Of a stretch of DNA of 45,746 nt, positions 11,536-41,861 are shown piece after piece. Position numbers and translations under genes: made by a program. How positions within the stretch are numbered: position 1 is the first letter of the stretch; the number at the start of each line of letters is the position of its first letter. The notes under the pieces are model-generated. The model saw only the letters and a program-made list of their open reading frames with translations, was not told where the DNA came from and searched no databases. Location: the NCBI GenBank assembly GCA_025359945.1, contig JANYDD010000029.1, positions 1 to 45,746 on the forward strand, read 5' to 3'. Source of the stretch: Bdellovibrio sp. GTDB lineage: Bacteria > Bdellovibrionota > Bdellovibrionia > Bdellovibrionales > Bdellovibrionaceae.

Positions 11536-11550
11536 CTTAGGGGAAACCAT

Positions 11551-11656
11551 CCTACCTATGCACATGACGCCAGCAAATTCGCCTTGTCGAATATTGTCGA
11601 CTTGAATGCGCTCCAGTCGAACACGACAGGTAGGTGGCGTCATGTGCATACGTAAG
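11551..11656 (+). mobile_element. 106-bp palindromic MITE-like element, copy 1
   Basis: This stretch is identical at all 106 positions to 41725-41830. Its ends are imperfect inverted repeats of 24 bases with three mismatches and a perfect 16-base core (TATGCACATGACGCCA at 11557-11572, reverse complement near 11635-11650). The interior is also self-complementary (TGTCG/CGACA, GACT/AGTC), so the whole element can fold into one long hairpin. A perfect 8-bp duplication, GAAACCAT, flanks it (11543-11550 and 11657-11664). It encodes no protein. It separates the promoter region of the downstream cysteine-protease gene from its start codon and supplies the AAG of the present Shine-Dalgarno. The 8-bp duplication implies mobilisation by a transposase not present in this window. 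Confidence 0.88.
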
Positions 11657-11662
11657 GAAACC

Positions 11663-13411
11663 ATGAATAATATTTTCAGAAAAGTGATAGCCTTTGCCAT
11701 AGTGTTTGCACCGTTTTTAACTAAAGCGGCCTGCTTTGTCCGCGCTGATGTTGACTGCCCCGGCAATACCGTCGCTTGGAGCCCCAAAGACGCCCTGACG
11801 AGATCAAAACTTCTCTACAGCGCGGAGGTTCAAAGCAATTCCCAGTCGTGCAACCTCTACGCCGCTTTGATCAAAGCTGAGTGTAATATTAAAGACCCCA
11901 TTCAATCTGTTTTTATCGACGCCAAAGGCGCATCGACGACTTATTTTTCGGCTGCAGATATGACGTCGGCTTTTAAAGATCCAAAAACATTGCCTTTGGA
12001 TTTTCAAAAATACTTTGCCGACAATGGCACGCAACTGATTATGTTGGAAAATCTGCAGGTGACCAAAGACTTTACCGCTCAACAGCAAACAACTTTAATG
12101 GATTTTGTTTCGGCGAAAAATCAGACCACTGTTCTGACTTTGCCAGGAGCCTGTGATTCGTTCAATCAGTTATCCGTTGATTTTTCGAGATTCAATCGAT
12201 GTGGGTATCGCGTTCAGTGCGGGACGAAGACGAATTTGAATGTTGGAGTTTCGATTGTGATCACCAAAATGGGCGCCAGTGACTCTGAAAATGTTACGTG
12301 CACGGCGGCAGATGCTTTGCAATCGATCATCGATGACATCACGACAATTCAAGGGACTGATGATCCCACTAAAATTTTATCTTATAAAGTTCAACCGACT
12401 GTGGCTAATTTTTCGGCGTTTAAAAATATGCCTTCGATCAGTCAGACCGACGGGTGGATTCAAGGTTTGTCGCTGGATAAATACGGCGTCAATTATGTGA
12501 AACCTGGAATCTGTTTGGGGACTTCGATGACCATGATGGCGTTGGGATTGAAAGACACCTCCGTTGGATCTTGGTTGGGAAATGGATTTGATGTCGCACC
12601 CAACAGCTATGGAGATGGAGTTGCATGGGTTCGCGATCCGTCAGATTCAAATAAATCAGTTCAAAAACAATATAGTCACTATGCGACTTATGTGGATGAG
12701 ATGCTGCGAGCAGGAGGTCTGGTGACAGGATCGTTTCCAGCCCTGATAAGTCAGTACAAAAACTTTTTTGAATCGCCTTTGGTTCAAGATCCTATGATGA
12801 CTGCGATCGCGTTTGCCGGTGGAAGTCCTTTGGGTTCTTACGAACATTTCTTGGCCCACAAAACGATTCAGTTAACTGTCATGCAAAACTTTAGAGCCTG
12901 GATTGCAGGGCGAAAGGGGATTGTTCTTGCTTTGCAAAGTACGGGCGTCACTCAGGGAGCAACCCCGATCGAGGGTCGGGTTGGACATGCCAACGTTGTG
13001 ACTGGATTTAGCGGATTTACACTTCTTTTGTTAGACCCCTGGGGAGTCGTCAGTCAGGCTCGATTTTCTAACTATGTTCAGGGAAATGCCGGACAAGTCA
13101 TGCGGACCTTTACCCAAGCCGAAGTCGATGCCTGTCGTCGAGATACGCCAGCTCAGTATGTTTCACTTTGCCCTAAAAAAGCCGGTGATCAATTGGTGGT
13201 GGAGTCCAGAGTTTATAGTGCGCTAACTCAGGTAGGCACTCGCTCGACCACGGATTTTAATAAAACCGGTGGGTACATTGGACTTAAGCTAGCGAGTGAA
13301 AATTCAATGGTCAGTGGGCAGGCGGCGTCTCTACAATTCGCGGCAGGAGAATCGACTAGCTATGCAAGATATACAGCCGCGCATAAGTTCGGGGACATAG
13401 TTGTACTTTAG
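11663..13411 (+). CDS. Secreted papain-like cysteine protease (predicted), C-terminus altered by an IS
   Basis: The product is a 582-residue exported protein. The ATG at 11663 is chosen for its signal peptide (MNNIFRKVIAFAIVFAPF..., cleaved near TKAA) and the AAGG five bases upstream. Residues about 280-465 carry the ordered pattern of a papain-fold peptidase: C284 in GICLGTSM, H442 in GHANVVTG, and D458 in LLDPWG. This resembles C39/C58-type enzymes. Overall family membership is uncertain because the rest is unfamiliar. The N-terminal 270 residues, with several Cys, may be a pro- or binding domain. The final 13 codons are IS630 sequence. Removing the IS and one TA would recreate a TAG stop directly after ...TSYAR. 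The 106-bp element sits in the 5' leader. Confidence 0.6.
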   Translation: MNNIFRKVIAFAIVFAPFLTKAACFVRADVDCPGNTVAWSPKDALTRSKLLYSAEVQSNSQSCNLYAALIKAECNIKDPIQSVFIDAKGASTTYFSAADMTSAFKDPKTLPLDFQKYFADNGTQLIMLENLQVTKDFTAQQQTTLMDFVSAKNQTTVLTLPGACDSFNQLSVDFSRFNRCGYRVQCGTKTNLNVGVSIVITKMGASDSENVTCTAADALQSIIDDITTIQGTDDPTKILSYKVQPTVANFSAFKNMPSISQTDGWIQGLSLDKYGVNYVKPGICLGTSMTMMALGLKDTSVGSWLGNGFDVAPNSYGDGVAWVRDPSDSNKSVQKQYSHYATYVDEMLRAGGLVTGSFPALISQYKNFFESPLVQDPMMTAIAFAGGSPLGSYEHFLAHKTIQLTVMQNFRAWIAGRKGIVLALQSTGVTQGATPIEGRVGHANVVTGFSGFTLLLLDPWGVVSQARFSNYVQGNAGQVMRTFTQAEVDACRRDTPAQYVSLCPKKAGDQLVVESRVYSALTQVGTRSTTDFNKTGGYIGLKLASENSMVSGQAASLQFAAGESTSYARYTAAHKFGDIVVL

Positions 13412-13428
13412 TTCTATCTGTTTATACT
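13401..13428 (+). promoter_or_regulatory. Transposase promoter inside IS630
   Basis: TTGTAC (13401-13406) and TATACT (13423-13428) are spaced by 16 bases and lie just inside the left inverted repeat. The expected start site is at or next to the transposase ATG at 13436, so the message would have almost no leader. This fits the absence of a Shine-Dalgarno before that ATG. Confidence 0.5.
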
Positions 13429-13435
13429 TTAGTCC

Positions 13436-14499
13436 ATGCAACAAAGATTCATCCACCTTCATCATAGAACAAAAAATAATTTGAAATCAATTATGCGAGA
13501 AGCCGCATCTGACGGGGCTGACAGAGTAGCTCGGCGTGTTCACGCCGTGCTCTTGAACAACGAAGAAAAGACTAGCGGACAAATAGCCGAGATTCTCGAC
13601 GTATCAAGATCTAAGGTCTCTGAGTGGCTTAGAATATATGATGAGCAAGGCTTTGAAGGATTGAAGGAAGGTGAAAGGTCCGGCCGCCCAGGTAGGTTGA
13701 CTGAAGTTCAAAAAATGATTCTGTGTGATATAGTCGATAGTGGTCCAATTGCTTTTGGATATTCCAGCGGGATCTGGACTTCAAAAAGAATCGCGCAAGT
13801 TATTTTCGAAGAGTTCCGCGTCGAGTATCACGCTGGTCATGTCAGAAAATTACTTTACGATTTTGGATTTTCAGTTCAATCACCAAAACGAGTCTTAGCC
13901 TTGGCAGACAAGGAAAAGCAGGATAAGTGGATTCGTAAAACGTATCCACAAATTAAAAAAAAGCTCAATCAGAGCAGGCTCGCGTAATATTTGAAGACGA
14001 AGCCAGTTTCAGACAAGATTCAACCCTACACCGAACCTGGTCGCGAATTGGTTGCCAACCATTTGTTCCAGTGACGGGACAGCGTGAATCAGTTAAGGTT
14101 TTTGGCTGCGTTGACTTGCATTCTGCGGAGTTTGAATTTATGTTCGATGAAGTCTTCAACTCCACGACCTATATGGTTTTCCTGGAAACGACACTCAGCA
14201 AGTTTTTTGAAAATAGTCGACGCATTCACTACATTCAAGATGGAGCTTCTTATCATAAGGACGGCGATGTTTGGTACTGGTTTAGAGAAAATAGAAAGTG
14301 GATTGAGGTTTATAATCTTCCATCGTACTCCCCAGAATTTAATGCCGTAGAGGCTTTGTGGAAGTTTACCCGCAAAGAAGGAACCCATAACGCAACGTTT
14401 GAATCTAAAAATGAAGTTCTCAGTTGCGTAACGGATGTCTTTGATAAAATGCAAAGAAATCCACAATCAATTGCTGGTTATCTTAAACCTTTTTGCTGA
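13436..14499 (+). CDS. IS630-family transposase, made by programmed -1 frameshift
   Basis: This DDE transposase cuts and joins DNA at TA sites. It is encoded in two overlapping frames. The first (13436-13987) supplies the DNA-binding half, with a helix-turn-helix around TSGQIAEILDVSRSKVSEWL and a second winged-helix part. The second frame, one base back, supplies the catalytic half: the first Asp in VIFEDEASF, the second in YIQDGASYH, and the Glu in SPEFNAVEALW. The frames join at A_AAA_AAG (13957-13963) in a run of eight A, correctly phased for a -1 shift. The fused product has about 354 residues, normal for the family. The frame break is therefore probably regulatory, not a mutation. Unshifted translation gives a 183-residue DNA-binding protein that could act as an inhibitor. 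Confidence 0.88.
13957..13963 (+). promoter_or_regulatory. Slippery heptamer for -1 ribosomal frameshift
   Basis: A_AAA_AAG lies in phase with the upstream transposase frame and just before the upstream stop at 13985-13987. A -1 slip here leads into the frame carrying VIFEDEASF. Confidence 0.75.
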
Positions 14500-14829
14500 C
14501 ACTATGTCCCCTAACTTATGCGCGGCTGTATAGAGGTCGGGCTGGGTAATTTTAACTTCAATTGGCCCCGTCGCAACTGGAGCATCAGGGCTTGGTCGCC
14601 AAGTCGTCTCATGCTTTCCGCTCCATTTTCCTTCGATATTTGGAACTCCATGAATCCACTCCAAAAATGGCAACCACTTCCAAACCCACTTGATAAAAAT
14701 CAGTCGCCCAAGCACTGCAATCGAGATGGTGGATGAAATAATATTTAGAATCTCTTTTGAAAAATCAGGCCCTTTAAATGCTGCCAAAATTAAGAAAATA
14801 AAAATTGCAAAACTGATCGTGAGGTTCAC
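14467..14829 (-). pseudogene. Truncated Cap15-like (2TM plus beta-barrel) CBASS effector remnant
   Basis: The native part spans 14533-14829 (100 residues from a GTG); the remaining residues are read from the IS630 end. Two hydrophobic segments (about residues 2-18 and 24-46) precede PNIEGKWSGKHETTW and GPIEVKITQ. That order and the PNxxGxW motif match the start of the Cap15 cyclic-nucleotide receptor barrel, in which two membrane helices are joined to an eight-strand barrel. In intact CBASS the barrel senses a cyclic nucleotide and the protein then damages the inner membrane during phage infection. Here only about the first two barrel strands remain, so it is probably non-functional. No CD-NTase partner gene is visible. 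The family call rests on motif memory and is moderate. Confidence 0.55.
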
Positions 14830-41706: not shown

Positions 41707-41861
41707 AATTCCAGCGCCCTTTTTCCTACCTATGCACATGACGCCAGCAAATTCGCCTTGTCGAATATTGTCGACTTGAATGCGCTCCAGTCGAACACGA
41801 CAGGTAGGTGGCGTCATGTGCATACGTAAGCCCTTTTTACATCCGTAAGGGCGCTGGAATT
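41707..41861 (-). terminator. argS intrinsic terminator, split by the 106-bp element
   Basis: On the minus strand the last codons of argS form AATTCCAGCGCCCTT (complement of 41847-41861), which pairs perfectly over 15 bp with AAGGGCGCTGGAATT (complement of 41707-41721), followed by TTTT. Without the element and one 8-bp duplication the loop would be 11 nt, a strong terminator. The element now lies inside that loop, making it about 125 nt long, though the element's own hairpin could keep the arms close. Confidence 0.75.
41725..41830 (+). mobile_element. 106-bp palindromic MITE-like element, copy 2
   Basis: This copy is identical to 11551-11656 and in the same orientation. A perfect 8-bp duplication, CCCTTTTT, flanks it (41717-41724 and 41831-41838). 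The different duplication at each copy shows independent insertions, not a long direct repeat from one event. It lies in the loop of the argS terminator, downstream of both neighbouring genes. Confidence 0.88.

Follow-up and report, generated by a model that had tools for sequence, protein, structure and literature searches.

The window, by which we mean the whole 45,746-nucleotide stretch of Bdellovibrio sp. DNA analysed here, contains two identical 106-bp stretches. One sits immediately upstream of the ATG at 11663, where a gene begins, and the other occupies the loop of a 15-bp hairpin overlapping the last codons of argS (Table 1). Each is bounded by perfect 8-bp direct repeats which differ between the two sites. 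This arrangement had been claimed in a preliminary description of the DNA and was confirmed by comparison of the two stretches, as were the inverted-repeat ends, which match at 20 of 22 positions and include a perfect 16-bp core (TATGCACATGACGCCA). A repeat-finding tool reports 107 nt, the extra base being a T shared by chance at the end of the two duplications. As a single strand the element folds at −48.7 kcal/mol (z = −7.5 against shuffled sequences) and its other strand at −51.1 kcal/mol (z = −7.2). It contains no gene, and the longest open frame possible within it is 35 codons. The earlier statement that it codes for nothing is thus correct as regards genes, but one frame (reverse frame 2) runs without a stop over the entire element.

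Insertion of copy 1 took place across the region in which the gene at 11663 starts. It displaced the AGGGG motif that lay 5′ of the old start, and the end of the element now supplies TAAGGAAACCATG 5′ of the start codon, which could plausibly act as a new ribosome-binding context for this gene. A consensus search found no promoter in copy 1.

Table 1. Coordinates of the MITE copies, their ends and target duplications, and of IS630-family elements. Positions without a locus prefix refer to the window.
Feature	Position	Strand	Remarks
MITE copy 1	11551..11656	+	106 bp; same sequence as copy 2 and 12 other genome copies
Left target duplication, copy 1	11543..11550		GAAACCAT
Right target duplication, copy 1	11657..11664		GAAACCAT; its final AT belongs to the downstream ATG (11663-11665)
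Left terminal inverted repeat, copy 1	11551..11572	+	CCTACCTATGCACATGACGCCA
Right terminal inverted repeat, copy 1	11635..11656	-	CTTACGTATGCACATGACGCCA (inward reading)
MITE copy 2	41725..41830	+	106 bp; within loop of terminator-like hairpin overlapping argS end
Left target duplication, copy 2	41717..41724		CCCTTTTT
Right target duplication, copy 2	41831..41838		CCCTTTTT
MITE copies with IS630 inside	L032:4395-4500, L033:2859-2965, L034:3948-4053, L015:42-170		contigs C20, C41, C57 and C96 of the same genome
IS630-family element	13370-14532		transposase in two frames, 13436-13987 and 14071-14499

We searched the 2.74-Mb assembly to which the window belongs (106 contigs, with the window in contig C9). 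Forty copies were scored in this search, and further ends came from a search with the end pattern; once flanks had been fetched and duplicates removed, 41 full-length copies were obtained, which are 93–100% identical. Fourteen of these are exactly identical; among the rest one or two differences are typical, rising to about seven in the copy that looks oldest. Substitutions define subfamilies with T3C, with C74A, and with C30G and C74A together. A perfect 8-bp target duplication flanks 35 of the 41 copies, and all 35 duplications are distinct. Since such a repeat would be expected by chance at only about 2e-5 per copy, a chance origin is excluded. The 35 different duplications show transposition, and rule out both ordinary duplication and a conserved RNA gene. 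The spread of the element was recent. The preliminary description had called the element a recently moving MITE and had proposed searching for many copies with distinct duplications and for a complete IS sharing its ends; the copy number, the duplications and the IS described below all support that view. Among the remaining copies, the one at L031:743-844 lies between 8-bp repeats that disagree at a single position (TGCGATTG / TTCGATTG), that at L023 has a 7-bp repeat, that at L015 has an end cut by IS630, and three (L009, L010 and L040) have unlike flanks. For two of these three, one flank repeat belongs to another copy: L009 and L034 have CAATCCTT in common, and L010 and L035 have GAGATTTC (contigs C26, C57 and C63). 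To explain the exchanged flanks, either MITE copies have recombined with one another or contigs have been joined wrongly.

Two copies are insertions into formerly intact genes, because removal of the MITE together with one repeat rejoins the domains that they interrupt. With the MITE present, an NDH-2 gene (L023) gives two partial Pyr_redox_2 matches (2–135 and 130–291), which become one continuous match (2–291, 175.5 bits) on removal. Similarly, a DUF4360 gene (L021) is matched in halves (2–139 and 138–178) and then continuously (2–178, 165.5 bits). The target itself is weakly palindromic, approximating to TAAC-n-[nAAATTTn]-n-GTTA when 35 sites are treated symmetrically, with a total half-site information of 2.07 bits versus a maximum of 0.95 in 500 random-site controls. 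A preference for hairpin targets, suggested by the position of copy 2, was rejected: the sites fold at a mean of −10.6 kcal/mol versus −9.5 for nearby DNA (P = 0.63).

At least 15 MITE copies are located within ORFs of 150 or more amino acids, on both strands. The MITE and its duplication together measure 114 bp, or 38 codons, so the reading frame is kept. Six of 15 such insertions read through the open reverse frame, whereas nine break the ORF. The expected proportion of readthrough is 1/6, and the excess (P about 0.03, post hoc) may represent survivorship or chance. Pfam searches of the six readthrough ORFs gave a single clear match (DUF4423, at L003) and a weak HNH match at L011 (5e-5), with no Pfam match for the remaining four.

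The IS1595 family, the bacterial relative of the eukaryotic Merlin transposons, comprises the ISPna2, ISH4, IS1016, IS1595, ISSod11, ISNwi1 and ISNha5 groups. Its members usually generate 8-bp duplications and have a single transposase gene whose product, outside the IS1016 group, carries a zinc finger at its N-terminus (PMC8101967). For ISApl4, 39 copies with A/T-rich 8-bp repeats have been reported (PMC12561309). Using the MITE as a query we matched the end of a 952-bp element in G029, another Bdellovibrionaceae genome (UBA2316, contig DDVI01000061.1). The ends of this element are CCTACCTATGCACCTGACGCCGGTAAATT and CCTACCTATGCACTTGACGCCGGTAAA (consensus CCTACCTATGCAC[C/T]TGACGCC), and 20 of 21 end positions are identical to the left end of the MITE, the match extending to 26 of 29 bases with the end at the transposase C-terminal side. 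Its ORF of 291 residues contains DDE_Tnp_IS1595 (3.4e-19) and Zn_ribbon_IS1595 (5.2e-9) domains, and this is the full-length IS with the same ends. In an alignment of four members of the transposase family D135, D192 and E260 are conserved, which makes them a candidate catalytic triad. No matching 8-bp flanks surround the full copy in G029; 8-bp duplications do occur at the IS1595-type elements L065, L067, L068 and L071. The first of these belongs to a Nitrospirae genome and is flanked by the repeat CTACTTTC. One of its ends, CCTGCATACCCGGTTGACGCC, can be aligned with the MITE end base for base and in register from base 1 to 21, and the boundary of the MITE is thereby fixed independently. A further IS1595-type end, in G010 from the same family, matches the MITE at 20 of 21 positions.

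In the window's own genome, an end search found at least four IS ends (CCAACCTATGCACTTGACG), each at the end of a contig. At three of them the coding sequence gives one and the same transposase C-terminus, with 94% identity to the protein of G029 across 36 residues; the fourth gives an N-terminus with 68% identity across 28 residues. The end sequence agrees with the left end of the MITE at 18 of 21 positions (three differences) and has five differences in 21 to the right end. The assembly contains no complete IS1595 element and no intact transposase, the middle of the IS being absent, and none of the IS found is the source of the MITE interior (about 30–84). All seven IS630 and all four IS1595 insertions at contig ends show one side only, their partners not being found in the assembly; contigs shorter than 3 kb may have been dropped. 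A more distant IS1595-type transposase remnant (C40:756-935; 37% over 63 residues) lies near a MITE copy at C40:379-482.

Taken as a whole, these data make it very probable that the MITE is a non-autonomous IS1595-family element, moved by the IS1595-type transposase of a full-length element in the same cell. The transposase would act on the MITE in trans, and its present partner is probably the IS whose ends are assembled here. A full-length IS would make the transposase, which would bind the inverted ends of about 21 bp and either cut the MITE out or copy it. Insertion at a target opened by cuts staggered by 8 bases would then produce the 8-bp duplication. Having spread recently, the MITE now occupies about 41 places in the genome of this member of the Bdellovibrionaceae.

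The MITE is also associated with another insertion sequence. An IS630 element (full copy at about L050:2055-3154, with ends TAGTAGGTAAC) is inserted in four MITE copies (Table 1), at the same TA (81–82) in three of the four and in both orientations. About half of the assembled IS630 ends lie in the MITE, which constitutes about 0.16% of the genome and looks like a hot spot for IS630. The window contains another IS630-family element, with 32-bp ends that are 97% complementary and TA on each side. Its transposase is split in two frames after an A-rich run, reflecting either a programmed frameshift or decay.

With one mismatch allowed, the MITE end pattern is found in five of 369 genomes of the phylum: the window's own genome, G029, G010, G079 and G123. 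The ends in G029 and G010 are of IS1595 type, and the end in G079, which belongs to the same family as these two, is IS-like by its sequence. G123, from a different family of the same order, contains the MITE twice, once with the identical sequence and once with T3C, and each copy has its own 8-bp repeat (GTCGCTAG and TGGGCGAA). The contigs concerned (C7 and C237) have 44–45% G+C versus mostly 53% in the larger sampled contigs of the bin, and their tetranucleotides are nearer to the window's own genome. When the MITE flanks were compared with that genome, no match was obtained except an ISAs1-like stretch (96%) and two weaker patches (78% and 84%). Because the G123 contigs differ in composition from most of that bin and otherwise share almost nothing with the own genome, the G123 copies represent either a recent transfer or a mis-binned third organism. 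We rejected them as proof of transfer. In contig C7 (L170; 2020-3655, 5962-6456) the MITE directly precedes an IS91-like transposase frame, and the end of the contig is taken up by an ISAs1-like element with 96% identity to one in C12 of the own genome, both elements being named by sight of the translation. A phage or plasmid vehicle was also rejected, there being no match to the MITE in phages, plasmids or IMG/VR. The wider proposal, that the MITE moves between Bdellovibrionales families and can seed 38-residue segments in proteins without breaking them, we regard as unlikely.

The strong fold on both strands, together with the position of copy 2 in a terminator loop, might be taken to indicate a conserved structured RNA gene or a multi-copy regulatory hairpin. 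The preliminary description had named a conserved RNA gene as an outcome that would overturn its reading, and the distinct target duplications contradict such a gene. No Rfam family reaches its gathering score in the window, where only loose limits yield matches, at chance level; 35 copies have their own distinct repeats; at least 15 copies are inside long ORFs, on both strands; and the end pattern is missing from 364 of the 369 phylum genomes. We consider an RNA gene or hairpin barely conceivable on this basis.

Movement by a transposase of another family is very unlikely, although the length of the duplication would permit it: elements of the IS6/IS66/IS256 type leave about 8 bp, and several IS families leave 8–9 bp. 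The presence of IS630 within four MITE copies is also compatible with such an origin, but the IS630 here has unrelated ends and inserts at TA, and the sole full-length element found with MITE ends is of IS1595 type. IS630 as the parent was likewise rejected, since the apparent longer versions of the MITE (82 bp, then TAGTAGGTAAC...) are IS630 insertions within it. It is most unlikely that the MITE has become a protein-inserting element, adding 38-residue segments in the manner of Rickettsia palindromic elements. The post hoc excess of readthrough and the DUF4423 domain of one affected gene are in keeping with this idea; against it, the majority of insertions in long ORFs are disruptive, only that one readthrough ORF has a clear Pfam match, and a run of 35 codons without a stop would not be unusual as a chance event. 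Mobilisation by an IS1595-type transposase remains our preferred explanation.

In the part of the literature covered by our search, no IS1595-type MITE is described in Bdellovibrionota. The claim that no element of this sequence had been described held in the collections searched, the kind itself being known, and the MITE appears to be an undescribed family that is new in sequence and ordinary in kind. The finding leaves the general picture unchanged. It concerns a recently active, high-copy MITE family in the Bdellovibrio group whose ends allow assignment to a transposase family, and it accounts for broken genes, one plausible new ribosome-binding context, exchanged flanks and a target for another IS. 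For the IS1595 family the MITE is a handy test object, being a natural substrate of 106 bp whose preference for targets can be measured.

With members of that family the MITE has in common 21-bp terminal repeats in register, 8-bp duplications, and ends found on relatives with DDE_Tnp_IS1595 and zinc-ribbon domains, but it differs in its 106-bp length, its lack of a transposase gene and its interior, which is not common to them. It resembles bacterial MITEs in being short and geneless, with inverted ends, target duplications, many near-identical copies and the ends of a full-length IS; the difference is that the partner here is of IS1595 type. The preliminary comparison with the Correia elements of Neisseria was apt as to size, those elements also being palindromic, about 100–155 bp long, present in many copies and located in or near genes. 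They duplicate TA, in contrast to the 8 bp duplicated here, and their ends are unrelated; the kinship of the MITE lies instead with the IS1595 family. The palindromic elements of Rickettsia are similar in their palindromic structure, in their length of about 100–150 bp and in that some insertions are read through in frame. Their insertions into genes have been reported to be in frame at high frequency (PMC10969869), whereas most of the MITE insertions in long ORFs break the gene (9/15).
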